This document shows, one piece after another, positions 6,121 through 53,389 of a DNA stretch of 53,389 nucleotides (the first letter of the stretch is position 1; every line of letters starts with the position of its first letter). The translations under genes were made by a program, and so were the position numbers. The notes under the pieces were generated by a model, which did not search any database, was not told the origin of the DNA, and worked only from the letters and a program-made list of their open reading frames with translations. The stretch is from Coprothermobacterota bacterium (lineage in GTDB: Bacteria; Caldisericota; JANLFM01), in NCBI GenBank assembly GCA_026389455.1, contig JAPLHV010000067.1, forward strand, positions 1 through 53,389. The letters run 5' to 3'.

Positions 6121-7368
6121 GCGGAAGATGCCCAGGAAGCTTCCCGCCCAGATCCCTTTCAGGAAACCCTCAGGGTAGACGGGTAAACCGGTAAGCAAGG
6201 GGTAGAAAGCCAGGAAAGCCAAGACCGCTAGAACCAGGACAACCCAACTGATCACACGAGCTGCAGGCCGTCGCCACCCTTTTTGAACCAAGATGGCCAA
6301 GGCCAGTGCATAGAAGGGTATCCCCGGCAACATATAAAAGATGAAACCTCCCTTGCTGGAAATAATCCAAGGTAAGTAGTTGACCAGAAAAGCGAAGAGG
6401 ACAAAGCCAGGCAGGAAGGCGCCCCGCCGGCGAGCCCACCAAGGCAGGCTGGCCAGCAAAGTCAGCAGGGCAATCCCCCCGCCGTACCAGACAATCGGGT
6501 TGCCAATGGCCAGGATCCCTTCCGTCAGTCCCGCCGGGTTAGTCAAGTAAGCGTACCAGACTCCCTTGGTCATCAAGGGCCAACTCCACCAGGGAGAAGC
6601 GTAGGGATGGTCAATGACCGCGCGGGTGTGCCAAGCCCAAGCGTCGGTGTGCAACTTGACTAAATCAGCCAAGTCATTCCCGAAGCTGAAATAATAGCTG
6701 TAACAAAGAAGGTAGAGGCCGCCCACCACAACGAGGAAGGCAAGGAAGACCAACAGTCCATTGGCCAGGAAGCTGAGCCCAGCTCGCCGGCTCAAGCGGA
6801 AGGGAGGGAAGACCAGAAAGAAAACTCCCAACGCTACGACCAGGTAAGCGGCTGACCATTTGGAAGCCAAGGCAAAACCCAAGGCAATCAGGGTGAAAAG
6901 AAAATCTAAACGCCAGCGAGTGCGGTAGAAACGCGCCGCGAAGAATAGAGCCAAGAGCGAGAAGAAGGCCACGTAGAGATCCAGCATAGCCATTCGGCCC
7001 TGGATGAAAACCATGAAATCGGTTGCATAAAAAACACCGGCGAAGAGCGCAGCGCCCCAACCCAAACCTAGAGCTCGGGCCAGGAGAAAGACCAGGATCA
7101 CCGCCAGGCAGCCCAACAAGTAAGAAAAGAAGCGCCACCCCAGCGCATTGTCGCCAAAGATAGTGATCCCCAAGGCGATGCACATTTTCCCCAGGGGGGG
7201 ATGCTCCCAGTTAGTATCCGGCTGCCCGGCCACGTAGGCACGTGCCGCCTTGACATAATGCACCTCGTCGAAGACGGTCCCGGCCGGCTGATTGAGGAAA
7301 AGCCCCCGCGAGAGGAAGGTGAAGAGGATCAGCAGGATCAGCAGAATAACCTGCTTGCGGAGCGTCAT
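6118..7368 (-). CDS. Dolichyl-phosphate-mannose-protein mannosyltransferase-like membrane glycosyltransferase
   Basis: Multi-TM; FDEVHYVKAARAYVAG...NWEHPPLGK motif typical of PMT/GT39. Confidence 0.85.
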   Translation of the reverse strand: MTLRKQVILLILLILFTFLSRGLFLNQPAGTVFDEVHYVKAARAYVAGQPDTNWEHPPLGKMCIALGITIFGDNALGWRFFSYLLGCLAVILVFLLARALGLGWGAALFAGVFYATDFMVFIQGRMAMLDLYVAFFSLLALFFAARFYRTRWRLDFLFTLIALGFALASKWSAAYLVVALGVFFLVFPPFRLSRRAGLSFLANGLLVFLAFLVVVGGLYLLCYSYYFSFGNDLADLVKLHTDAWAWHTRAVIDHPYASPWWSWPLMTKGVWYAYLTNPAGLTEGILAIGNPIVWYGGGIALLTLLASLPWWARRRGAFLPGFVLFAFLVNYLPWIISSKGGFIFYMLPGIPFYALALAILVQKGWRRPAARVISWVVLVLAVLAFLAFYPLLTGLPVYPEGFLKGIWAGSFLGIFR

Positions 7369-12317: not shown

Positions 12318-12424
12318 CAATCAAGTAGTCAAGTGGTTTAGTGATCAAGTGGTTTAGTGATCAAGTGGTTTAGTGATTTAGTAATTACTTACCCACCTAA
12401 CTACTTAACCACTTAATTACTGAA
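12318..12424. repeat. Family B array
   Basis: tcaagtgg tttagtga units then ccacttaa/ctacttaa units. Confidence 0.92.
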
Positions 12425-12439
12425 TTATACAGGCGCCAT

Positions 12440-15145
12440 TCATGGGAAGGCGGCTTCGGTCTGATACAGTTGATTAATCCCGTTCCAGTCGGCTGCGAAA
12501 AGGGAAAGATCCGTAGGCGGATTGAAGTCTAAGAACCGGCAATCGGAAATAAACTTCCCCACCTGCGGGACGCCCTGGGTCAAGTCCAGATGAAAACCCT
12601 GAAATCCGTTGGCTTTCCCTTGGAACCAGGTAAGCCCATCCTCGACCCAGAAAAGCGATGCACTCTCCTGGCCGATCGACTGGCTGGCGTAGAATTGCAA
12701 CTCGGGGTAGCGGAAAATCTGCAACTCGCTCCTCCCTTCCGCGCCCACTTGCAATGTCAGGAAGCGACCATCCGGAGACCAAACCGCCAGGCTGAGATCC
12801 CGCCCAGAGATCAGGGTGCGTTGGGCGCCCTCCAAATTGACCAGGCGAGCTTCATCGAGATTGCCCAGATGGACCAGGATCAGGATCTCGCTTCCATCCG
12901 GAGACCAACGATGGGCATAGATTTGCCCAGCTTCCTCCTGGACGAGCAGACGCGCATCACCGCCGTCAGCGTTCATCAGCCACAACTCCGGGTGTGCCGG
13001 ATCCAGCGCTTGGCGGTAGGCAACCCAGCCGCCCTGGGGAGATGGCAGCGGATTGCCGGCAGCGCCGCTGATGGTCAGTTGAGTCGCCTCACCGCCCCCC
13101 TCACCGGCGACCCAGATGTTGCTGTTGGCCCCTCCCCGGTCGAAGTAGAGCAGTTGGCTGTCCTCTGACCAGGCCGGGTGAGCGCCGGGGCCGAGGTCGC
13201 GAGACACGCTGCCGCTAGTTAACATGCTTCCGCGGGCTATCACTTCCAGGTCCATCCACTGCAAGCGACTGTTGCCGAGGAACTCTTCACTGTACGCCAA
13301 CCACTTCCCATTCGGGGAGAAGGATGCCTCCCTCTTCTCCCCCTCCGTCTCGGAGAGAGGCTGGTACTCTGATTTGACAGGAAGCAAGCGGGCTGTCAGC
13401 TCACGCGTCTCCCCCTCTGCCAAGGAGAATCGCAATCGCCAGTCCTGGTACGTCTCTTTCTTTAAGGTGAGGGAGACTGTACCCCCCTCGGAGAGGGTAA
13501 GGGTCGTGGGGGTGCGGCAGAGGTACTCATCATCCAAATACACTTCAGCAGCTTGGGGTTGTGAGGAGAGGGCCAGCTTACCGGCGGATAACAAGGGGGA
13601 GACGGCGAGCTCTTGCCCGGAGAAATCAGCTTGCCAAAGCCGGCGGAAACCGGTCGCATCGGAGCTATAGAGGAGGATCGCGCCGCCTTGGCTAAGAGCC
13701 AGTGAATTCAGGTTGCCGCCGTCGCGATAGATCTCGCGGGGCTCCCCCTCTCTTGGGTTCCAACGCCAAAGAGCGTTTTCCCCTTCCCCTTGAAGGAAGA
13801 GGAGCGGACCATCCGGAGTCCACAACAACTCGGTCGCCAACTGGGGGCAGAGAAGGGTTTCTTTCTCGCTAGTGAGGTCGTAGAGGAAAAGACCATCCCG
13901 GGATGCTGCCGCCAACTCTTGGCCGGAAGGAGACCAGGCCAAGGCGAAGCATTCCCTGCCCACTTGACTGAGAGCTCGATTGACGCTTGTCTGGAGCGAA
14001 AGCAAATAAATCCTCCCATCGGTTGCTGCCAGGTAGGCCAGCCAGTTGCCATCCGGGGAAAGGGCGAACCGTTCTACTGGGAAGCTGGAGAGATCATGCT
14101 GCCGCAAATTCTCAACCCGCAGGCTATCATGCTCCAGACTAGACAGTTGCTGATCGCTCATCGCTTCATGCAGGGTCAAGCGGGAATCACTTCCCCCCAA
14201 TGTGAGCAGTTGGTCACGGTTCAACCAAGCTATTTGGGCGAGGGCCTGCTCGGGGGAGGCGGTGCGGGTTACATTGCGGTCGCGGTCCCAGATCGCCAAT
14301 GAATCGCCGTTCGCTCCAGAGATCACGTAGGCCAGGCGCTTCCCATCCGGAGACCAAGCTGGGCGAACGATGGCCAACCCTTCCCGCACTTTCTCCACTT
14401 GCCCGCGCGTGACATTATCGCCTGCGGCAGCATTATAGCCCGCGGCAGCTCGATAGCCCCCGGCAGGGTGATACAGCCACAGCTCACCCGTCCCAGCGCG
14501 GAAATCTTCCTTGGAACCGAGAAAGGCGATGGTCTCGCTGTTCGGGGAAACAGAAAGGAGCGCGAATTGCTGCAAACCAGTCCTCTGTGCATTCGCCTCT
14601 CCGCTCTTGGAAACAAGCTTCACTTCCAATCGCAATGGGGCGCTGGAGAGAGCCATCACCATTTCCTCCCAAACCCGGAATCCTTCCTTGTGCAAAGCCA
14701 CACGGTGACTGCCTGGAGCCAGGCTTAGTCGCAACGGGGTGATCCCCACAACCTCGCCATCCAAGTAGACTGTCGCGCCTGGGATGTTGCTGAGTATTTC
14801 AGCTTTGCTCGGCGAGACGCTGCCGGTAGCGACCCCAAAGGAAAGGACGAAGAGCATCACCAGGGCCACTGCCGCTCGCCAGGCAACCGGCCAGGAACCA
14901 ACCCTGCCGGGCTGACGGCCTCTTCTCCTCTCGCGCAAGCGAGCCTCAAAGGCTTGCCAGTAGGCGGGGCTGTGAGCAGGAGTGTGGCAAGAAACCAACC
15001 AATCGCGCATCTCCTCCTGCTCGGCGAGATTTCGACGGCAATCCGCACATTCAGCCAGATGTTCTTCCACTCGAGCTCGTGCGGAAGAGCAAAGCTCCTG
15101 ATCTAAATAGGCGGCGAGGAAGCGCTCTTGCCGGCAGCGGCTCAT
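12440..15145 (-). CDS. Anti-sigma factor-like protein: zinc-finger N-term, TM, PEGA domains, TolB/WD40-like beta-propeller
   Basis: HLAECADCRRNLAEQEE; TM LVMLFVLSFGVATG; PEGA-like IPGATVYLDGEVVGITPLRLSLAPGSH and AAEVYLDDEYLCRTPTTL; repeated WSPDGKRLAY motifs; overlaps sigma gene by 4 nt. Confidence 0.85.
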   Translation of the reverse strand: MSRCRQERFLAAYLDQELCSSARARVEEHLAECADCRRNLAEQEEMRDWLVSCHTPAHSPAYWQAFEARLRERRRGRQPGRVGSWPVAWRAAVALVMLFVLSFGVATGSVSPSKAEILSNIPGATVYLDGEVVGITPLRLSLAPGSHRVALHKEGFRVWEEMVMALSSAPLRLEVKLVSKSGEANAQRTGLQQFALLSVSPNSETIAFLGSKEDFRAGTGELWLYHPAGGYRAAAGYNAAAGDNVTRGQVEKVREGLAIVRPAWSPDGKRLAYVISGANGDSLAIWDRDRNVTRTASPEQALAQIAWLNRDQLLTLGGSDSRLTLHEAMSDQQLSSLEHDSLRVENLRQHDLSSFPVERFALSPDGNWLAYLAATDGRIYLLSLQTSVNRALSQVGRECFALAWSPSGQELAAASRDGLFLYDLTSEKETLLCPQLATELLWTPDGPLLFLQGEGENALWRWNPREGEPREIYRDGGNLNSLALSQGGAILLYSSDATGFRRLWQADFSGQELAVSPLLSAGKLALSSQPQAAEVYLDDEYLCRTPTTLTLSEGGTVSLTLKKETYQDWRLRFSLAEGETRELTARLLPVKSEYQPLSETEGEKREASFSPNGKWLAYSEEFLGNSRLQWMDLEVIARGSMLTSGSVSRDLGPGAHPAWSEDSQLLYFDRGGANSNIWVAGEGGGEATQLTISGAAGNPLPSPQGGWVAYRQALDPAHPELWLMNADGGDARLLVQEEAGQIYAHRWSPDGSEILILVHLGNLDEARLVNLEGAQRTLISGRDLSLAVWSPDGRFLTLQVGAEGRSELQIFRYPELQFYASQSIGQESASLFWVEDGLTWFQGKANGFQGFHLDLTQGVPQVGKFISDCRFLDFNPPTDLSLFAADWNGINQLYQTEAAFP
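14410..14474 (+). repeat. Family A, three units inside the anti-sigma/TolB gene
   Basis: attatagcccgcggcagctcgatagcccccggcagggtgatac. Confidence 0.92.
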
Positions 15146-15962: not shown

Positions 15963-16026
15963 TGGTTCTCCTTGTAAGTAGGCTACTGAGTTAGACGCAA
16001 GGAGAACAGCGATTATTCAGAGTCTG

Positions 16027-16093
16027 CAAGTAGATAAGCAGTTAAATTAGTGATCAAGTAATTCAGTAGTTTAGTAAGTACTTACCCTAACTA
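16027..16093. repeat. Family B array
   Basis: aagtagataagcagttaaattagtgatcaagtaattcagtagtttagtaagtacttaccctaac. Confidence 0.85.
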
Positions 16094-16142
16094 GACAGCC
16101 CCCGGCAGGGCGTTCTGTGACATGCTGCCGCAGGCTGTTCTG
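16091..16142 (+). repeat. Family A plus A-prime variant (tgacatgctgccgcaggctgttctg)
   Basis: ctagacagcccccggcagggcgttctgtgacatgctgccgcaggctgttctg. Confidence 0.92.
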
Positions 16143-16156
16143 TACCCACTTAGGCT

Positions 16157-16289
16157 GACAGCTCACGGCAGCTAGACAGCTCACGGCAGCAAGACAGCTC
16201 ACGGCAGCTAGACAGCTCACGGCAGCAAGACAGCTCACGGCAGCTAGACAGCCCCCGGCAGCTAGACAGCCCCCGGCAGGGCGTTCTGT
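16157..16289 (+). repeat. Family A tandem array, 7 x 18-bp units plus terminal gcgttctg
   Basis: gacagctcacggcagcta / gacagctcacggcagcaa alternation, then gacagcccccggcag. Confidence 0.95.
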
Positions 16290-16680
16290 GTCGAAGTGGG
16301 GCAGATAGCCGCGAGAGTGCCGCCTTCGGGCTGGTTGCTCTCCAGAGCGGTTGGCCTCCGTCTTGTTACTGCAGATGCCGCACTGGGGTGCGGCGGTCCC
16401 AGGAAAGCCGACAATCCCAGGAATAGTCTCAGGGACGGTCTCAGTCTTGGGTGCAGTCTCATTCCCAGGAGCAGTCTCAGGGACAGTCTCAGTCTCAGAT
16501 TTGCCGCACTGAGGCGCCGCGGTTCCAGGGATAGTCATCCCCTTTTGTTCTTGAGGTCTCATCGACCCTGATATGGTTTACACCGGAATGGTCCTCGTAG
16601 GGGCGGGTTTCAAACCCGCCCACGCACGGGCTCTCTCTCTTAGTGATGCATCATTCTTCAGAACACCCTGCCGGGGGCTA
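16270..16680. repeat. Family C segment, copy 1
   Basis: Shares tcgaagtggggcagatagccgcgagagtgccg, ctggttgctctccagagcggt, gatgccgcactgggg, cggtcccaggaaagccga and gtaggggcgggtttcaaacccgcccacg with 53090..53389. Confidence 0.9.
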
Positions 16681-16682: not shown

Positions 16683-16846
16683 AAGTGGTTAAGTGGTTTA
16701 GTGGTTTAGTGGTTTAGTGGTTTAGTGGTTTAGTGATTAAGTGGTTTAGTGATTTAGTGATTAAGTGGTCTAGTAGTTTAGTAACTACTTAATTACTTAA
16801 TTACTTACCTACTTAATTACTTACCTACTTAATTACTTAATTACTC
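16679..16846. repeat. Family B array
   Basis: gtggttta period 8, then aattactt/acctactt period 8. Confidence 0.93.
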
Positions 16847-16850
16847 GTGT

Positions 16851-19325
16851 TTACGCCCGGAACGATCGTAAACGAAGCGAGTTGGTCACTACGAAGACCG
16901 AGCTGAAGGCCATCGCCAGAGCGGCGATGATTGGGTTGAGGAGGATTCCGAAGAATGGGTAGAGGATGCCGGCGGCAATGGGGATTCCCAAGACGTTGTA
17001 AAGGAATGCCCAAAATAGGTTCCAGCGGATCGTCGCCATCGTCTGCCGGGCCAAGGCCAGCGCTTTCCCCACCCCACGCAGGTCACCCGAGACCAAGGCT
17101 ACGTCGGCCGACTCCAATGCCACATCAGTGCCTGTGCCCAGTGCGATGCCAAGGTCTGCTTGAGCCAGGGCGGGAGCGTCGTTGATGCCGTCACCGATCA
17201 TCAACACCCGCTTGCCTTGAGATTGCAGAGCCTTGATTTGATCAGTCTTGCCCGATGGCAACACTTGCGCCAGGACGCGATCGATTCCCAATTGTCTCGC
17301 CACAGCGTGTGCTGAAGCCTCTGTGTCGCCGGTGATCATCCACACCTCCAGGCCACCATTCTTTATCGTGGAGATCACCTCCTGCGCTTCCGGTTTCAAT
17401 GTATCACGGATCAACAAGGCGCCGCGGTATACACCGGCTACAGCTAGATAAAGAGCCGTAAACCCCTGTCCCTCGAAGGAACGCTCCAATTCCACAACTC
17501 CGGCTTCCTCCAGGTAGCGTGCGCTTCCCAAGAGTACCTCCTGCCCGCCCACGGAGGCTTGAACACCCAGCCCCGGCAATGCTTGGAACCCATCAGCCGC
17601 CGTTGGGGTGATCCCATTCTCGACTGCATAGGACCGCACCGCCTGGGCTAATGGATGCTCTGAGTCGCTCTCTACGCTGGCAGCGATGCTTAACAACTCC
17701 TCCTCGCTTCCTTGACTTGGGACGATTCTCTCCACCCTGGGTTTGCCGGCAGTGAGGGTGCCGGTCTTGTCGAAGATCACCGTATCCACCCGGCCGGCTT
17801 CCTCCAAGGCCTGTCCTGAACGGATCAGGATCCCCATCTGGGCCCCCCGGCCGGTCCCCACCATGATGGCGGTCGGGGTAGCCAATCCCAAGGCGCAGGG
17901 ACAAGCAATAACCAGCACCGCCACTGCGTTGTTCAGCGCCAACAAGTAGCTAGGCGCCGGTCCCAAGGCCCACCAAATCAGGAAGGTCAGGGCGGCAATC
18001 CCCAAGACAATGGGGACAAAGATCGCGGCGATGCGATCAGCCAACTTCTGGACAGGGGCTTTGCTGCCCTGCGCATCCTCCACCAGGCGGACCACTTGAG
18101 CCAGGAATGTATCTTTCCCAACTCGCTCAGCTCGGAAGCGTAACGACCCGGAACCATTGATGGTAGCTCCGGTAACGAGATCACCCAGCCTCTTGGGAAC
18201 GGGGAAAGCCTCTCCAGTTACCATCGATTCGTCGACTTCAGAGCTCCCCTCTTCGATCCGTCCGTCCACTGGGATGCGCTCTCCCGGACGAACCAGAAGG
18301 AGGTCGCCGACTTGCACTGCCTCTGCCGGCGCCACGCTCTCCACCCCGTCGCGGATAACCGTGGCGGTGGGAGGCTGAAGATTCATCAGGTGACGAATAG
18401 CTTGCGAGGTGCGGCCTTTTGCCTTGGCTTCCAGATATTTACCGAAGAGGATCAGGGTAATTATGACTGCCGAAGTGTCGAAATAGGTAGCGCTGGGGAG
18501 GCCGGATTGTTCCAGCGTCGAAGGGAAGAAAGTGACGAAAACAGAGTAGAGGTAAGCCGCTGAAGTGCCCAATGCTACCAGGGTGTTCATGTCGGTGGCG
18601 CCGTGACGTAAAGCTCCCCAGGCGCCGCGGTAGAATCGCCACCCAGCCCAGAATTGAACCGGCGTTGCCAAAACCAGGAGGAGATAGGGATTGGCCAACC
18701 AGGTCGGGAAGCCAGGGACCATCCCCAGCATCGAGCCGGCCAGGATTACCAGGGAAAGGGCTGCGCTGACCCACAGGCGCAAGGCCAGATCGCGCTGTTC
18801 TCGGCGACGGGCTTCCACCTCGCGGTCGCGGTTTTCACCTACCAGAGTAGCCGTGTATCCGGCTTCCTCGACTGCCCGGATCACCTCCTTTGGCTGGAGC
18901 AACCCAACCATATAATCTACATAGGCTCTCTCAGTTGCTAAGTTGACTTGAACGGAAAGAACGCTGGGGAGAGAGCGAATCGCCTCTTCGACATGGGCTG
19001 CACAAGTGGCGCAAGTCATTCCCCCGATCAAGAAAGTAGTGCGATCCTGCAGCACATCGAAGCCGGATTCGCGGATGGAACGCGCCACATCAGCGATACG
19101 CCCATCTTCCACAAGCAGGGAGGCGCTCTCGTTGGCCAGATTCACGACCACTTCGAGAACGCCCTCCGTCTGCATCAAGGCCTCCTCGAGGTGAGTCACG
19201 CAGGAGGCGCAGGTCATCCCGATAATCGGGATCTTAACAGAACGCCCTGCCGGGGGCTGTCTAGCCGCCGGGGGCTGTCTAGCCGCCGGGGGCTGTCTAG
19301 CCGCCGGGGGCTGTCTAGAACTCAT
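16851..19325 (-). CDS. copA: Copper-translocating P1B-type ATPase with repeat-encoded N-terminus; ATGA overlap with upstream YHS gene
   Basis: Two HMA domains (GMTCASC, GMTCATC), [28 protein letters not shown]-term [28 protein letters not shown] encoded by repeat A. Confidence 0.94.
19238..19318 (-). repeat. Family A, four 18-bp units inside copA 5' end
   Basis: ctgtctagccgccggggg period 18. Confidence 0.95.
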
Positions 19326-24308: not shown

Positions 24309-24386
24309 CTAGTTCAGTAGTTAAGTAATTAAGTAGGTAAGTAATTAAGTAATTAAGTAGTTACTAAACCACTTAACCACTTGATA
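24309..24386. repeat. Family B array
   Basis: agttaagtaattaagtaggtaagtaattaag...actaaaccacttaaccacttgat. Confidence 0.9.
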
Positions 24387-26965: not shown

Positions 26966-27765
26966 TGGCACGGGTTTTCTGGCTGCCGACGGAATGCCTT
27001 CAACCCGACAGAGACGCGCTGCCGAGGGTTATCGAGCTGCCGCGGGTTATCGAGCCGCCGCGGGTTATTTTCTTCCCTCCCGAGGAACGCCATCATCTTC
27101 TCCATGTCCTGCGCAAGAAAGCAGGAGACAGTGTCGATGTCCTCTGTGGCGGCCAACGCCTACAGGTGGAACTTTTCCTCCGGGGAGAGGCGCTCCTTGG
27201 AAAAATCCTCCAAACCCAGGCTATTCAGCCGCCTCTCTTTTCGTTGAACCTGGCTCAGGGCTTGCCCAAAGGTCGCAAGATGGAACAAGTCGTCACCTTG
27301 GCTGGACAAGTCGGGGTGCATCGCTTGTTGCCCTTTCACTCCCTTCGCTCCATCCCCCGCCTGGACGATGCCGAAAGCAAGCGGAAATGGGAGCGCTGGC
27401 AGCGTTTGGCTGACGAGGAGGCCAAGGTGACCGGTTCCCCACCTTTGCAGGTCGCTCCTCTCTCAACTCTCGAGGAGATCCTGCACCAGGGTGCAAGTGC
27501 CGGTCTTCGCCTGTTCTGCTGGGAAAACGCCGAGCGATCTCTCCTGGATACTCTGGAAATAACACCAACCTTTCCTGAGGCGGGTATCTTGGTGATCGGC
27601 CCGGAGGGAGGTTTCGCCCCCGAGGAAGCCCGGTTGGCCGAGCAGTCCGGCTTCCAGGCAGTACACCTGGGAGAGCGTATCCTTCGTACGGAAGTAGCCG
27701 GTTTAGTGGCTGCTGTTCTTATCCTGGAGCGCGGCGGCGCCTTCCGCCTACCCTTTTCCCCTTGA
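26965..27765 (+). CDS. rsmE: 16S rRNA (uracil-1498-N3)-methyltransferase RsmE with repeat-encoded N-terminal stretch
   Basis: PPEERHHLLHVLRKKAGDSV, VLVIGPEGGFAPEEARLAEQSGFQAVHLGERILRTEVAG; LPRVIELPRVIEPPRVI from repeat A. Confidence 0.92.
   Translation: MARVFWLPTECLQPDRDALPRVIELPRVIEPPRVIFFPPEERHHLLHVLRKKAGDSVDVLCGGQRLQVELFLRGEALLGKILQTQAIQPPLFSLNLAQGLPKGRKMEQVVTLAGQVGVHRLLPFHSLRSIPRLDDAESKRKWERWQRLADEEAKVTGSPPLQVAPLSTLEEILHQGASAGLRLFCWENAERSLLDTLEITPTFPEAGILVIGPEGGFAPEEARLAEQSGFQAVHLGERILRTEVAGLVAAVLILERGGAFRLPFSP
27010..27070 (-). repeat. Family A, three units inside rsmE 5' end
   Basis: ctgccgagggttatcgag / ctgccgcgggttatcgag / ccgccgcgggttat. Confidence 0.9.
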
Positions 27766-29054
27766 GAATCTCGCTGGCCGTTCTCGGCTGCAAGATCTCG
27801 CAATACGACGCTGCCCACTTGGAGGAGCGCCTTCGCCAAGCCGGGGCGGAGATCACTCCTCCCTCACCGGAAAGCCAGGCTTTCCTGCTGTGCGGTTGCG
27901 CCGTCACCGAACGCGCTGCCCGCGAGGCCGGACAGGTTGCCCGCCGCCTCCAGCGCTTGAACCCGAATGCTCCTCTTTATTACTACGGTTGCATCGGCGC
28001 TTACTTTGCAAATCAGCCGGAACACCTTGCCGGGGGCTGTTCTACTGCCGGGAGCTGTTCTACTGCCGGGAGCTGTTCTAGCTTGATAGCCCCCGGCAGG
28101 GTGTCCTATCAAGCCTGCTGCTTCCCGCCTGGTTCTGAGGTTGCATTGCTGGAAGCCCTCGGTCTTTCCTCCCCAGCCCCTGTGAGTTCCGGCAGCAGTT
28201 GGCGCCGCACTCGCGGCTTGGTGAAAGTACAGGACGGTTGCAGTCACTTCTGCGCCTACTGTATCGTGCCGTATTTGCGCGGCCCGGCTAAAAGCCGACC
28301 CATCCTTGAGGTGGAAGGGGAAGTGGCAGATCTGCTCAGTCGAGGTTTCCGCGAGGTGGCGTTATCGGGGGTTCACCTCTCATCATGGGGACATGACCTA
28401 GGCGGCTCCACCCTAATAGATCTTCTCCAATGCCTGGACCGCCTGCCAGGGTTGGATCGTCTGCGATTGAGCTCGCTGGAGCCGATGGACCTGAGCCCCC
28501 AGACAGTGGCAAGCTTCCGCACCATCGAGCATCTCTGTCCGCACCTCCATCTCCCGTTGCAAAGCGGCTCTGATTCTATTCTGCAGCGCATGGGTCGCGG
28601 CTATGACCGGGCTCACTACCTGCGTTTGGTCGAAGCGGCGCGGGCCGCCTGGCCGGAGGTAGCTCTGACCACTGACATCCTGATCGGTTTCCCTGGGGAG
28701 AGCGAGCAGGATTTCCAAGCTACTTTGGAGACCATCGAGGCAGTCAGTTTCGCTCGTTTGCACCTTTTTCGCTACTCTCCCCGGCCGGGCACCCCTGCTG
28801 CTTCGATGACCGGCTCCATTGACGAGAGGGAGAAACGCCGACGCCTAGAACGCTTGCGTTCTCTTGCTGAAGCTCTTCCCGGCCGCTTCCGCCGTCGTTT
28901 TCTGGGTCGCTCCTTCCCAGTATTGGTGGAACGGATCAGGGAAAACCAGGCCGGCGGTTTCACTCCCAACTACATTCACCTCACCTTCCCAGCTTGGCCT
29001 GGTCTGGAAGTGGGCCAACCGGTCGAGGTGAAGGTGAGCGAGGAAGAGCCTTGA
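27762..29054 (+). CDS. mtaB: tRNA t6A37 methylthiotransferase MtaB (MiaB-like radical SAM) with internal repeat insertion
   Basis: VQDGCSHFCAYCIVPYLRG; GVHLSSWG; HLHLPLQSGSDSILQRMGRGYDR; AGGCSTAGSCSTAGSCSSLIAPGRV from repeat A. Confidence 0.92.
   Translation: MRISLAVLGCKISQYDAAHLEERLRQAGAEITPPSPESQAFLLCGCAVTERAAREAGQVARRLQRLNPNAPLYYYGCIGAYFANQPEHLAGGCSTAGSCSTAGSCSSLIAPGRVSYQACCFPPGSEVALLEALGLSSPAPVSSGSSWRRTRGLVKVQDGCSHFCAYCIVPYLRGPAKSRPILEVEGEVADLLSRGFREVALSGVHLSSWGHDLGGSTLIDLLQCLDRLPGLDRLRLSSLEPMDLSPQTVASFRTIEHLCPHLHLPLQSGSDSILQRMGRGYDRAHYLRLVEAARAAWPEVALTTDILIGFPGESEQDFQATLETIEAVSFARLHLFRYSPRPGTPAASMTGSIDEREKRRRLERLRSLAEALPGRFRRRFLGRSFPVLVERIRENQAGGFTPNYIHLTFPAWPGLEVGQPVEVKVSEEEP
28019..28107. 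repeat. Family A inverted pair inside mtaB
   Basis: ggaacaccttgccgggggctgttcta...(x3) followed by cttgatagcccccggcagggtgtcct. Confidence 0.93.
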
Positions 29055-29202
29055 CAAGGTTAACGAGATGAAGACAGATTGCCTCTTCTGCCGTATAATA
29101 CGGGGCAATGTGGCTGCCACTCGGGTGTACGAGGACGATAAGACGTTGGTTATCCAGGATCTTCACCCCCGCGCCTCGGTATGTTGGTTGTTGCTACCCA
29201 AA

Positions 29203-29233
29203 GCATGCCCTCGAGCGAAGCGAAGGATGCATG
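29203..29233. repeat. Palindromic insertion gcatgccctcgagcgaagcgaaggatgcatg inside HIT remnant
   Basis: Adds ACPRAKRRM between LLLPK and HVASLLEV; ends are partially inverted (gcatgccct / aggatgcatg). Confidence 0.6.
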
Positions 29234-29366
29234 TGGCAAGCCTCTTAGAAGTAGAGGACTCAGAATTTCTCAGCGTTTTACTGCTTACAGGGCGCCGGTT
29301 GGCGCAAGAGCGGGGCCTGACCGGACCGAAAGGAAACTGTGTCGGACCTCGCAGGTTTCGCATTAC

Positions 29367-29411
29367 AGGACACCCTACCGGGGGCTGTGATGCTGCCGCA
29401 GGCTGTCTCCA
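29367..29411 (-). repeat. Family A inside HIT remnant (left, inverted)
   Basis: aggacaccctaccgggggctgtgatgctgccgcaggctgtct. Confidence 0.88.
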
Positions 29412-29440
29412 ATTGTGGATCTGGGGCGGGCAGACCATCT

Positions 29441-29466
29441 ATCTAGCCCCCGGCAGGGTGATACTT
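29441..29466 (+). repeat. Family A inside HIT remnant (right)
   Basis: ctagcccccggcagggtgatact. Confidence 0.9.
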
Positions 29467-29542
29467 GAACGTCCATCTCCTAGGGGGACGGATCCTTCCG
29501 TCCCGCCCTGGATAGACTTAGCGACGGAAGGAGGGGTGAGGA

Positions 29543-29722
29543 ATGGCCGAAGTGAAGCGCAGGCCTAACGAGTCTGTAGACGAGTTGGTCAAGCGTTTTA
29601 AGAAGCAGGTCCAAAAAGAGGGGATCATGAAAGAAATCAAACGGCGAGAGTATTTCGTGTCTCCTTCGGTCTTGCGTCGGAAGAAAGCAGCCGCCCGGCG
29701 TAAGAAAGCCTCTACAGAATAG
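29543..29722 (+). CDS. rpsU: 30S ribosomal protein S21 (59 aa; below ORF-track cutoff)
   Basis: MAEVKRRPNESVDELVKRFKKQVQKEGIMKEIKRREYFVSPSVLRRKKAAARRKKASTE read from DNA; preceded by gaggggtgagga. Confidence 0.92.
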   Translation: MAEVKRRPNESVDELVKRFKKQVQKEGIMKEIKRREYFVSPSVLRRKKAAARRKKASTE

Positions 29723-29741
29723 CCCCCAGCAGGGAGTACTT
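29716..29741 (+). repeat. Family A at rpsU stop codon
   Basis: agaatagcccccagcagggagtact. Confidence 0.88.
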
Positions 29742-29746
29742 AAGCG

Positions 29747-31870
29747 ATGAATAAACCCAGGACGGCCTGGGAACTTAGGGGTAGACAAGTCACCCCAGGA
29801 GCGAAGCGCCTCCGCCTCTTTTTGATGGCGGCAGCGCTCTATCTCCTCTTCCTGGCCGTCCTGATCTCTTTCTTGTTCCCCCCCACAGTGGATGTCAGCT
29901 TGGGCAGTGTAGCCGAAGAGGATGTCATCGCCCCGCGAAACGCCATCTATATTGATGGGCAGAAGACGGAGGAACTGCAAACACTGGCGGAACAGTCGGT
30001 GATGCCGGTCTACCAGAAAGATTTCACCCCTGCTCGCCAGAACATGGTCCGCACCCAGATCAACAATTTCTTCAACACCATCGAAGAGGTGGTCATCAAC
30101 GGCGCCCTGACCAACGAGGAGAAGGCCTCCCGCCTATCCTCCGTCCTTCCCCCAGCCTTCACCTCGGAAGTCATCCAAGCGGCCCTGCGAATCGATTCCC
30201 ATCTATGGACCACCCTTCTCTCCTACTCGATGGACATCGCCCAGCAGTTCCTGGCGGCTGGGGTCAAGGAAGAGGATCTTACCCAGCTCTCCTCGAGGAT
30301 CCGCGAGAAAGTCGGCGTACTAGGCTTGCCTGAGGAAGCCAAAGCCGTGATGGTGGCGGCCTGTCAGGCAGCCATTACACCCAACCTGACCCTGGACCGG
30401 GAAGAAACAGAACGGCGTCGCGAGGTAGCGCGGAACTCGGTCGACCCAGTCCGCAGACAAATCGCCAAGGGAGAGATCATCGTCAAGAAAGGGGAGACGG
30501 TGCGGGAGGAACAGCTCCCCATGCTGGAGGCGCTCGGCCTGCAACGGCGCGAGTTCCCTTGGGAGAAACTGGTCGGCACAGTGCTGATCTCTCTCGCCCT
30601 CTTTGCCACCTGGACCGCTTTCAGCTTGTACTTCGGCGCCGACTTCCTCACCGTTCGCCGAATGCTCTTCGTCGCCCTCCTCTTCACCTTGATCGTACTG
30701 GCAGCCCGTTTTCTGCCGCCTCGTTTTATCTACTTGATCCCCATCCCCCTGGCAGCCATCTGCCTCTCCTCTCTCTTCAACCTGCCCTTCGCCGTGGTCT
30801 TCGCCATCTTCTCTTCGCTGGCGGTGGGATTGATCCAAGGCAACGACTTCCTCCTCAGCTTCGCCATGCTATTGGGCGGGGCAGCAGGGGCTTATTCCGT
30901 GCGGCGGGTGGGAAAAACTGGGGATTATCTGGCAGCAGGCTTGACTACCGGGCTGGCCCTGGCTTTCGCCGTGGGCGCCTCCGGGCTTAGCTTGGGAAAA
31001 GGGATGCTGATGCTGGAAGAGATGGGCTGGGCATTCGCCAATGGCCTCCTTTCCGGTGTCTTCGCCATCTTCTTCCTTCTGCTGCCGGCTACCGAGAGCT
31101 TCTTCGACCTGACCTCTCCACTGCATTTGATCGAGTTGGCCAATCCCAACCAACGGCTCTTGCGTCGCCTTTTCCTGGAAGTGCCCGGTACCTACCTGCA
31201 CAGTGTGATGGTGGCCTCGCTTTCTGAGAGCGCTGCCTCGGCGATCGGAGCCAATGTACTGTTGGCGCGTGTCGCCGCCTACTACCACGATGTCGGCAAA
31301 TTGGTCCGGCCTGACTATTTCGCTGAGAACCAAGGGGAGTTCAATGTCCACGAACGAATGACACCGCAGCTCTCTACCACAGTCGTCACAGCTCACACCC
31401 GCGATGGGGCGGATATGGCCCGTGCAGCCGGAGTCCCAGAGCCGGTCGTGGCGATGATCCAGAGCCACCATGGAACCTCACTGGCGAGCTTTTTCTACCG
31501 CCAGGCCCAGCGCAACAGCGAGAAGGAAACGCCCGAGGAATCCTTCCGCTATGACGGTCCCAAACCGCAAAGCAAGGAAGCTTGTATCCTGATGCTGGCC
31601 GATGGGGTAGAGGCCGGGGTACGGTCACTGCGCGAGAAGAGTCCGGAGAAAATCAGCAAAATGGTGGGCGTCATCTTCGCTGACCGGGTCAAAGATGGTC
31701 AATTGGAGCGGAGTGAGCTGAGCTTCCAGGAGCTGGAACGGGTTGAGGAAGTCTTCGTCCGGGTGCTGGTTTCTGCCTACCATCTTCGACCCGAGTACCC
31801 TGAACCGGTCAGCAAGGAAAGGAAAGGGCATGTCGAAGAACACGCTGCAGGACAAGCCCCCGGCAGCTAG
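29747..31870 (+). CDS. pgpH: 7TM HD-domain (PgpH-like) cyclic-di-AMP phosphodiesterase family protein
   Basis: N-term TM, extracellular domain, 7TM, HD motif ARVAAYYHDVGKLVRPDYF; C-term AAGQAPGS* in repeat A. Confidence 0.85.
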   Translation: MNKPRTAWELRGRQVTPGAKRLRLFLMAAALYLLFLAVLISFLFPPTVDVSLGSVAEEDVIAPRNAIYIDGQKTEELQTLAEQSVMPVYQKDFTPARQNMVRTQINNFFNTIEEVVINGALTNEEKASRLSSVLPPAFTSEVIQAALRIDSHLWTTLLSYSMDIAQQFLAAGVKEEDLTQLSSRIREKVGVLGLPEEAKAVMVAACQAAITPNLTLDREETERRREVARNSVDPVRRQIAKGEIIVKKGETVREEQLPMLEALGLQRREFPWEKLVGTVLISLALFATWTAFSLYFGADFLTVRRMLFVALLFTLIVLAARFLPPRFIYLIPIPLAAICLSSLFNLPFAVVFAIFSSLAVGLIQGNDFLLSFAMLLGGAAGAYSVRRVGKTGDYLAAGLTTGLALAFAVGASGLSLGKGMLMLEEMGWAFANGLLSGVFAIFFLLLPATESFFDLTSPLHLIELANPNQRLLRRLFLEVPGTYLHSVMVASLSESAASAIGANVLLARVAAYYHDVGKLVRPDYFAENQGEFNVHERMTPQLSTTVVTAHTRDGADMARAAGVPEPVVAMIQSHHGTSLASFFYRQAQRNSEKETPEESFRYDGPKPQSKEACILMLADGVEAGVRSLREKSPEKISKMVGVIFADRVKDGQLERSELSFQELERVEEVFVRVLVSAYHLRPEYPEPVSKERKGHVEEHAAGQAPGS

Positions 31871-32327
31871 ACAGCCCCCGGCAGGGCGTCCTATCAAACT
31901 TCCGCGGGTAATCTACCTCAACAATCAGCACCCCCGAACTCGCCTGGCGAAAAAACCGCTGATTGACCTAGCCCTAGGCGTATTGGAGGGAGAAGTCCGG
32001 GCCGGCGAACTTTCCATCACCCTGGTAGACGATGAGACCATAGCCCGCTTGAACTCCCTCTACCACCACTGCGAAGGCCCCACGGACGTCCTCTCCTTCC
32101 CCCTCCAAGAAGGAGCGGGCGATCTGTGGGGAGACATCTACATCAGCCTCGATGAAGCTCGCCGTCAAGCCAACGAGTACGGGGGGAACTTAACTCAGGA
32201 AGTGCGTTTGCTGGTGGTGCATGGCATCCTCCACCTCTGTGGTTACGATGATCAGAAAGAACCCGCACGCAGCGCCATGCGCAAGCGCGAGGCTGACTAC
32301 TTGGAATGCAGTTCGTCCTCTTCCTAG
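31830..32327 (+). CDS. ybeY: Endoribonuclease YbeY with repeat-encoded N-terminal extension
   Basis: TDVLSFPL, VVHGILHLCGYDDQ; N-term [14 protein letters not shown] from repeat A. Confidence 0.92.
   Translation: MSKNTLQDKPPAARQPPAGRPIKLPRVIYLNNQHPRTRLAKKPLIDLALGVLEGEVRAGELSITLVDDETIARLNSLYHHCEGPTDVLSFPLQEGAGDLWGDIYISLDEARRQANEYGGNLTQEVRLLVVHGILHLCGYDDQKEPARSAMRKREADYLECSSSSS
31851..31893 (+). repeat. Family A, two units across pgpH stop and ybeY 5' end
   Basis: acaagcccccggcagctagacagcccccggcagggcgtcc. Confidence 0.93.
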
Positions 32328-34757: not shown

Positions 34758-34852
34758 ATAAGTAGTCAAGTAGTTAAGTGGCTAAGTAGTTAAGTGGCTA
34801 AGTAGTTACTAAACTACTAAACCACTGGATCACTAGACCACTGGATCACTAG
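34758..34852. repeat. Family B array
   Basis: aagtagtcaagtagttaagtggctaag...actaaactactaaaccactggatcactag. Confidence 0.9.
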
Positions 34853-34875
34853 ACAGCCCCCGGCAGGGTGTTCTG
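34848..34875 (+). repeat. Family A adjoining B upstream of CNNM copy 3
   Basis: actagacagcccccggcagggtgttctg. Confidence 0.92.
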
Positions 34876-37339: not shown

Positions 37340-37351
37340 GAAGAGTCGCCA

Positions 37352-52877: not shown

Positions 52878-52963
52878 CTCATCGTCTCATTGATCCACCG
52901 CGCCATATCGTTCTTCCACGACCATGCGATCCTGCCCACAGGGAACCCCTCTCAAGTGGTTCG

Positions 52964-53101
52964 ACTAGACAACCCCTGGCAGCTCGATAGCCCCCGGCAG
53001 CTCGATAGCCCCCGGCAGGGTGTTCTGTGACATGCTGCTGCAGGCTGTTCCGAGCTGAATAGCCCCGGCAGCTAGACAGCCCCCGGCAGGGTGTTCTGTA
53101 T
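52964..53101 (+). repeat. Family A cluster at left edge of C copy 2
   Basis: agacaacccctggcagctcgatagcccccggcagctcgatagcccccggcagggtgttctg...ctagacagcccccggcagggtgttctg. Confidence 0.92.
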
Positions 53102-53389
53102 CGAAGTGGGGCAGATAGCCGCGAGAGTGCCGACCCCTGGGCTGGTTGCTCTCCAGAGCGGTCGGCTTCTGTCACTTCACTGCTGATGCCGCACTGGGGC
53201 GCCACGGTCCCAGGAAAGCCGATGGTCCCAGGAACGGTCCAGATACCAGATTTGCCGCACTGGGGCGCGGCGGTCCCAGGGGTATGGTTTACGCCGGAGT
53301 GGTCCTCGTAGGGGCGGGTTTCAAACCCGCCCACGTACGGGCTGTCTCGGCATAGTGATGCCTCATTCTCCAGAACACCCTGCCGGGGG
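53090..53389. repeat. Family C segment, copy 2 (truncated by window end)
   Basis: As for copy 1; again bounded by A(+) on left and A(-) on right. Confidence 0.9.
53370..53389 (-). repeat. Family A, inverted, cut by window end
   Basis: cagaacaccctgccggggg. Confidence 0.9.

Follow-up and report, generated by a model that had tools for sequence, protein, structure and literature searches.

Why does a HinT-type histidine triad (HIT) gene carry a short dispersed repeat, which we will call repeat A, in the middle of its catalytic motif? Did the repeat destroy the gene, and how did it get there? The gene lies on contig C210 of a metagenome-assembled genome (G000; 2.63 Mb in 263 contigs), and we analyzed the contig's whole stretch of 53,389 nucleotides (the window). 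For comparison, we used a sister species from the same genus (G001, also a metagenome assembly) and three genomes from the same family (G002, G003, and G004). Positions 7179–42280 of the window are collinear with G001:C148, at 90.8% identity; the G000/G001 alignment covers 209 kb, at 90.5% identity. The features that we discuss are listed in Table 1.

The HIT gene has several lesions

The HIT open reading frame at 29068 is flanked by an mtaB-like gene and rpsU, and a YqfF-type HD gene then follows. G002, G003, and G004 have intact HIT orthologs at the same syntenic position, and by synteny, the window's open reading frame descends from an intact HIT gene. Only its N-terminal half matches Pfam (DcpS_C, residues 5–81), and with the HIT model it scores 16.8 bits, which is below the cut-off of 21.5. 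As to membership in the HinT branch of the HIT superfamily (PF01230/PF11969), no one open frame contains an HxHxHxx motif with the catalytic histidine.

The initial annotation had placed repeat A right after GGQTIYL, with the continuation of the HIT protein in a different frame, and this is what we see. GCCCCCGGCAGGGTGATAC lies at 29446–29464 (forward strand), immediately 3' of ...GGQTIYL, and is followed in another frame by TTGAACGTCCATCTCCTAGGGGGACGG..., which encodes LNVHLLGGRILPSRPG and then a stop codon. HIT similarity does continue downstream of the repeat: the remainder of the motif reads LNVHLLGG. Where the window carries A, G001 has an empty site with an intact motif (QTIYHLHVHLLGG). 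Aligning the filled site (ccatctatc[TAGCCCCCGGCAGGGTGAT]acttg) to the empty site (ccatctacc^acttg) gives an insert of TAGCCCCCGGCAGGGTGAT between ATCTAYC and ACTTG, with no target-site duplication. The first histidine of the triad is lost at the insertion, the second is replaced by asparagine, and the rest of the motif is out of frame. (The second histidine of the triad is the nucleophile in HinT.)

Could the break be a sequencing or assembly error? The sequence does come from a metagenome assembly. But an error is unlikely to set a 19-bp repeat so precisely, the insert belongs, letter for letter, to a family that has hundreds of copies, and it is accompanied by other lesions and by the missense change at the second histidine. 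We consider an error to be extremely improbable.

A second, inverted copy of A had been described about 30 bp upstream. There is inverted A sequence there, but it is really a two-unit array, and it ends about 35 bp upstream of the solo copy. In all, the gene has at least four lesions besides the solo copy. The initial annotation lacked the 24-bp in-frame insert (8 extra residues after LLLPK, relative to the intact orthologs), a 1-bp deletion, and the change of the second triad histidine to asparagine.

We also asked if A broke an otherwise working gene, as had been claimed. A does split the motif. Furthermore, the inverted array (+40) and the deletion (-1) combine to restore the frame, which stays open through GGQTIY until the A unit at 29444, so that this unit is the last frame break. 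But the frame would be restored one time in three by chance, the conserved VINxxPGG is itself replaced by the inverted array, and the 8 added residues and the asparagine also count against a gene that was otherwise working. The G001 ortholog is broken too, at a different place: between VIQDL and EVEDS, it has instead a block containing an 8/16-bp repeat and a GCCCGTGGCAG unit. Given the several other lesions and the independent break in G001, we think it quite unlikely that A was the inactivating event. Each species retains the part of the gene that was lost in the other; the gene was thus intact in their common ancestor and was lost independently in each.

The initial annotation also had the element landing on the catalytic motif. 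One copy does lie within HxHxH, but a single case is not evidence that A targets the motif. By chance, a 15-bp motif in a gene of about 340 bp would be struck by a few percent of insertions.

We did not find a second copy of the HinT-type gene in G000. Contig C190 of G000 encodes an intact HIT protein of another type, which is common to G001 and probably also to the same-family genomes. A third, non-orthologous HIT gene, on C226 of G000 (locus L009, C226:1279-4560), has an intact HAHIH motif and adjoins an HNH endonuclease gene. We saw no counterpart of this HIT gene in G001–G004, and the two genes are possibly a mobile or defence pair.

Table 1. Features of the HIT locus and A-type insertions in the window
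Feature	Position	Strand	Remarks
Three-unit A array	14414..14466	+	21-mer end identical to that of the HIT copy
A array at N-terminus of copper-ATPase-like gene	19239..19314	-	Encodes (RQPPAA)n
Three-unit A-type array in rsmE-like gene	27010..27063	-	54 bp, in frame, absent from G001; Methyltrans_RNA domain intact
A-type array in mtaB-like gene	28019..28080	-	In frame, between UPF0004 (3-80) and radical SAM (155-324) domains
HIT (HinT-type) pseudogene	29068..29568	+	Open frame of 166 codons; the last ~42 are no longer in the original frame and overlap the start of rpsU
Other small hairpin repeat (..CCCTCGAGCGAAGCGAAGGAT..), 24-bp net in-frame insertion	about 29204..29230	+	GCATG at both edges
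Two-unit inverted A array	29364..29409	-	46 bp versus 6 bp in G001; replaces conserved VINxxPGG (VINCEPGG) region
1-bp deletion	29424..29426	+	GGGG versus GGGGG in G001
Repeat A solo unit, 19-bp insertion within QTIY^HLHVH motif	29444..29462	+	Absent from G001; clean filled/empty alignment
Detached HIT 3' end (LNVHLLGGRILPSRPG and stop)	29465..29516	+	Second triad histidine read as asparagine
Solo A-type unit, 21 bp	29720..29740	+	Exactly on rpsU stop codon; G001 has acagaa^taagcg
A array between yqfF and ybeY	31836..31910	+	75 bp, in frame

Repeat A is abundant in one species

Repeat A is a dispersed repeat of about 18–22 bp (YAGCCCCCGGCAGGGTGTTC, with variants GCCTGCGGCAG... and GCCCGCGGCAG...). 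The window contains 14 copies at up to 3 mismatches, versus 0.03 expected, and G000 contains 73 copies at up to 2 mismatches, versus 0 for the reversed control. The exact 14-mer AGCCCCCGGCAGGG occurs 419 times in G000, 40 times in G001, 5 times in G003, and not at all in G002 or G004. The reversed controls for the 14-mer were also 0, but the core of A is nearly symmetric, which makes reversed sequence a poor control for counting, and we substituted a Markov control. With that control, 147 solo matches and 0 arrays are obtained, versus 532 arrays with 1021 units (at up to 1 mismatch) in 921 kb of G000; 346 of the arrays are solo units. (The array statistics are based on these 921 kb and on 609 kb of G001.) From the 14-mer counts across the five genomes, the A family probably predates the genus and has recently expanded in the window's species.

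When A units are adjacent and on the same strand, their spacing is usually 18 bp (417 cases) or 21 bp (29 cases). Inverted pairs lie 27 bp apart (about 50 bp overall) in both species. An inverted pair is predicted to fold stably (z = -4.3), while solo units are not (z = -0.9, -0.3, and 0.3). The 21-mer TAGCCCCCGGCAGGGTGATAC of the HIT copy also terminates the array at 14454.

We searched for A more broadly. The window has no match in Rfam, the viral contigs that we searched have no match to A, and an exact literature search for the A core gave unrelated matches only. In other genomes, there were scattered single matches besides the records from the sister species, among the matches listed.

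Longer mosaic repeats (GTCGAAGTGGGGCAGATAGCCGCGAGAGTGCC... and CCGCACCCCAGTGCGGC) that contain A units are found at 16020–16600 and 52879–53334 of the window and recur in the genome. The mosaic repeat at 16020 is absent from G001.

Insertions in genes usually keep the frame

In the G000/G001 alignment, we classified 32 clean A events of at least 9 bp, of which 1–2 may not be A, as the matching rule was loose (for example, the 21-bp insert in G001, C33:7682). Solo inserts are mostly 18 bp (CAGCCCCCGGCAGGGTGT) or 21 bp (CAGCCCCCGGCAGGGAGTTCT, the GAGTTCT type). With coding status judged from ORF length alone, the length of the insertion is a multiple of 3 for 21 of the 23 events in ORFs that span 150 codons or more, versus 4 of 9 elsewhere (Fisher P = 0.010; binomial against 1/3, P = 1e-8), although the unit lengths of 18 and 21 are already multiples of 3, which weakens the argument. 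The bias is best read as purifying selection. At 19 bp, the HIT copy belongs to the out-of-frame minority, which is expected where a gene is free to decay.

The A-bearing rsmE-like, mtaB-like, copper ATPase, and ybeY genes keep their domains. In the copper-ATPase-like gene, 72 bp of the array are missing from G001, in two adjoining gaps. At the end of rpsU, the insert provides a new TAG stop codon and S21 is unaltered.

The empty site in G001, the intact HIT genes in G002–G004, and the 32 resolved insertions strongly support the earlier claim that the element inserts into genes. We think it quite likely that this claim and the history that we propose for the HIT gene (an intact gene in the ancestor shared with the sister species, lost independently in each) are both correct. 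This confidence does not extend to a mobilizing enzyme.

Other small repeats vary between the sister species

Intergenic 8/16-bp tandem arrays (AAGTGGTTTAGTGATC and TAAGTAGTTAAGTGGC) are found in the window at 2186–2358, 12329–12421, 16684–16845, 24310–24363, and 34759–34854. These arrays vary in length between G000 and G001, and the G001 HIT gene, too, is interrupted by such a block. GACCTCCGGTC represents a second family of small palindromes, with units of 17–18 bp that also occur in tandem and are present or absent between G000 and G001 (G000 C88:23620, C238:40114, and C73:10072; G001 at C238:59397). A 24-bp family (the GGGCCTGCCCTCGAACGAAGCGAAG type) is inserted in frame in genes of both species, at 29204–29230 of the window and, in G001, at C33:14203, C16:464, and C77:5679 (G000 coordinates). 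Finally, at 37342 of the window, G001 alone has an insert that is a near-perfect palindrome of 51 bp (TAATTGGGGACAGCCACTGATTTAATTAAATTAGTGGCTGTCCCCAATTAT). It is possibly a remnant of the end of an IS200-type element.

How repeat A might move

None of 31 clean A sites has a target-site duplication, and there is no shared target motif in the flanks. The ambiguity in placing the ends of the insert against the flanks averages 0.58 bp, versus 0.67 bp by chance, so there is neither target duplication nor microhomology.

The main alternative to a mobile element is that A is not transposed at all. Instead, error-prone repair or replication might copy short pieces of arrays into breaks (templated insertion or gene conversion), followed by slippage. 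This would fit with the lack of a target duplication, a target motif, or a linked transposase, with the partial units and the many variants of the arrays, and with the multiplication of other short repeats in G000 (GACCTCCGGTC, the 24-bp CGAAGCGAAGG type, and the 8/16-bp arrays). However, the solo inserts repeatedly share the same limits (the 18-bp CAGCCCCCGGCAGGGTGT and the 21-bp GAGTTCT type), which favors a defined unit, and the junctions lack microhomology. We take templated repair seriously, while doubting that it is the explanation.

We rejected several other ideas. An 11-bp element with a 7-bp target duplication might lie behind the 18-bp period, but the flanks are not duplicated at either solo or array sites. 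The TATC/GATA around the HIT copy prompted us to consider snap-back template switching, but we found no complementarity of the flanks over 103 solo units. As for damage to the bases adjoining the inserts, divergence is flat with distance.

We propose that A is actively mobile and has recently multiplied in the window's species. It would enter many sites, with no visible preference among them and no duplication of the target. It would arrive as solo units, inverted pairs, or 18-bp tandem arrays, and the arrays would then grow or shrink in place. Insertions in working genes would persist mostly when the frame is kept. The HIT gene would have become dispensable and then gathered several small insertions, one of them in the histidine triad. 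An enzyme acting in trans might mobilize it without leaving a duplication; one of the single-strand/HUH type would fit. While the insertions themselves, their absence from relatives, the in-frame bias, and the gradient in copy number are seen directly in the genome comparisons, the mobility of A is our interpretation of them.

G000 has 8 Y1 transposase genes, versus 1–2 in G002–G004, and this excess is suggestive of Y1 involvement. Against our proposal, we did not find a mobilizing enzyme, the 8 Y1 loci are without A (0 units in the 22 kb around them, where 11.7 were expected), and the comparison is between two metagenome assemblies.

A more specific proposal is that A is a defined unit of 18–21 bp that is moved by an enzyme without target duplication, that it has increased about ten-fold since the split from the sister species (which is about 90% identical), and that it naturally supplies proteins across the proteome with in-frame peptide insertions. 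This proposal is tentative, and we rate it as rather unlikely. To our knowledge, every characterized pair of transposon ends is far longer than 18–21 bp.

Comparison to known kinds of small repeats

The nearest in size to A are the small dispersed repeats (SDR) of Nostoc and other cyanobacteria, which Elhai et al. reportedly described in 2008 as high-copy units of about 20–27 bp between conserved flanks. A is similar in being a dispersed unit of about 20 bp, at high copy and between conserved flanks. Unlike the SDR, A shows no preference for a target such as HIP1; its units line up in 18-bp tandem arrays and are found largely within coding sequence, and its sequence and phylum are also unrelated. 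Solo inserts of A (18, 19, or 21 bp) are present or absent between conserved flanks of close relatives, which fits an SDR-like class. In contrast, a MITE of a DDE transposon would have terminal inverted repeats and a target-site duplication, and none of the 31 clean sites has such a duplication.

The GC clusters of yeast mitochondria are very short GC-rich elements that are also found inside a coding gene, var1. By description, A is similar in being very short and also within coding genes, but the GC clusters are in an organelle and have another sequence.

The Rickettsia palindromic elements (RPE) are palindromes of about 150 bp that are kept in frame within genes of unrelated function (PMC10969869). 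A is likewise kept in frame inside genes, but RPE are several times longer than its 18–22 bp, and A forms head-to-tail arrays.

Finally, A might be a REP/REPIN family that is moved by a RAYT-type Y1 transposase. REPs are short repeats that form inverted doublets and tandem clusters, with occasional intragenic copies, and they supply TAG stop codons to neighboring ORFs (PMC3733652, PMC3116915). Most of what A shows is also seen in REPs: solo units, inverted pairs, tandem arrays, intragenic copies, no target duplication, and a TAG at the unit junction that gives neighbors such as rpsU a stop codon. The number of Y1 genes in G000 also fits. On the other hand, just 17 of 255 terminal A units have a GTAG tag at one end and 13 of 255 have a CGTC tag, a stable stem of 5 bp or more is lacking in the single unit (it is only as an inverted pair that A folds well), no Y1 (RAYT) gene is flanked by A, and A is not confined to intergenic DNA. 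It seems improbable that A belongs to the REP/REPIN families. We file A as a putative new family among the very small mobile repeats in general, distinct from REP, and by description we set it beside the Nostoc SDR.

Significance

The HIT locus is a case in which the same gene was lost independently in two sister species, through different small insertions. More broadly, comparing G000 with G001 yields dozens of sites at which a member of one of the smallest apparently mobile repeat families is present in one genome and absent from the other. These paired sites have clear unit limits, no target duplication, and a pattern that points to selection for the reading frame. How tiny repeats move is an old question, and the A system makes it testable.
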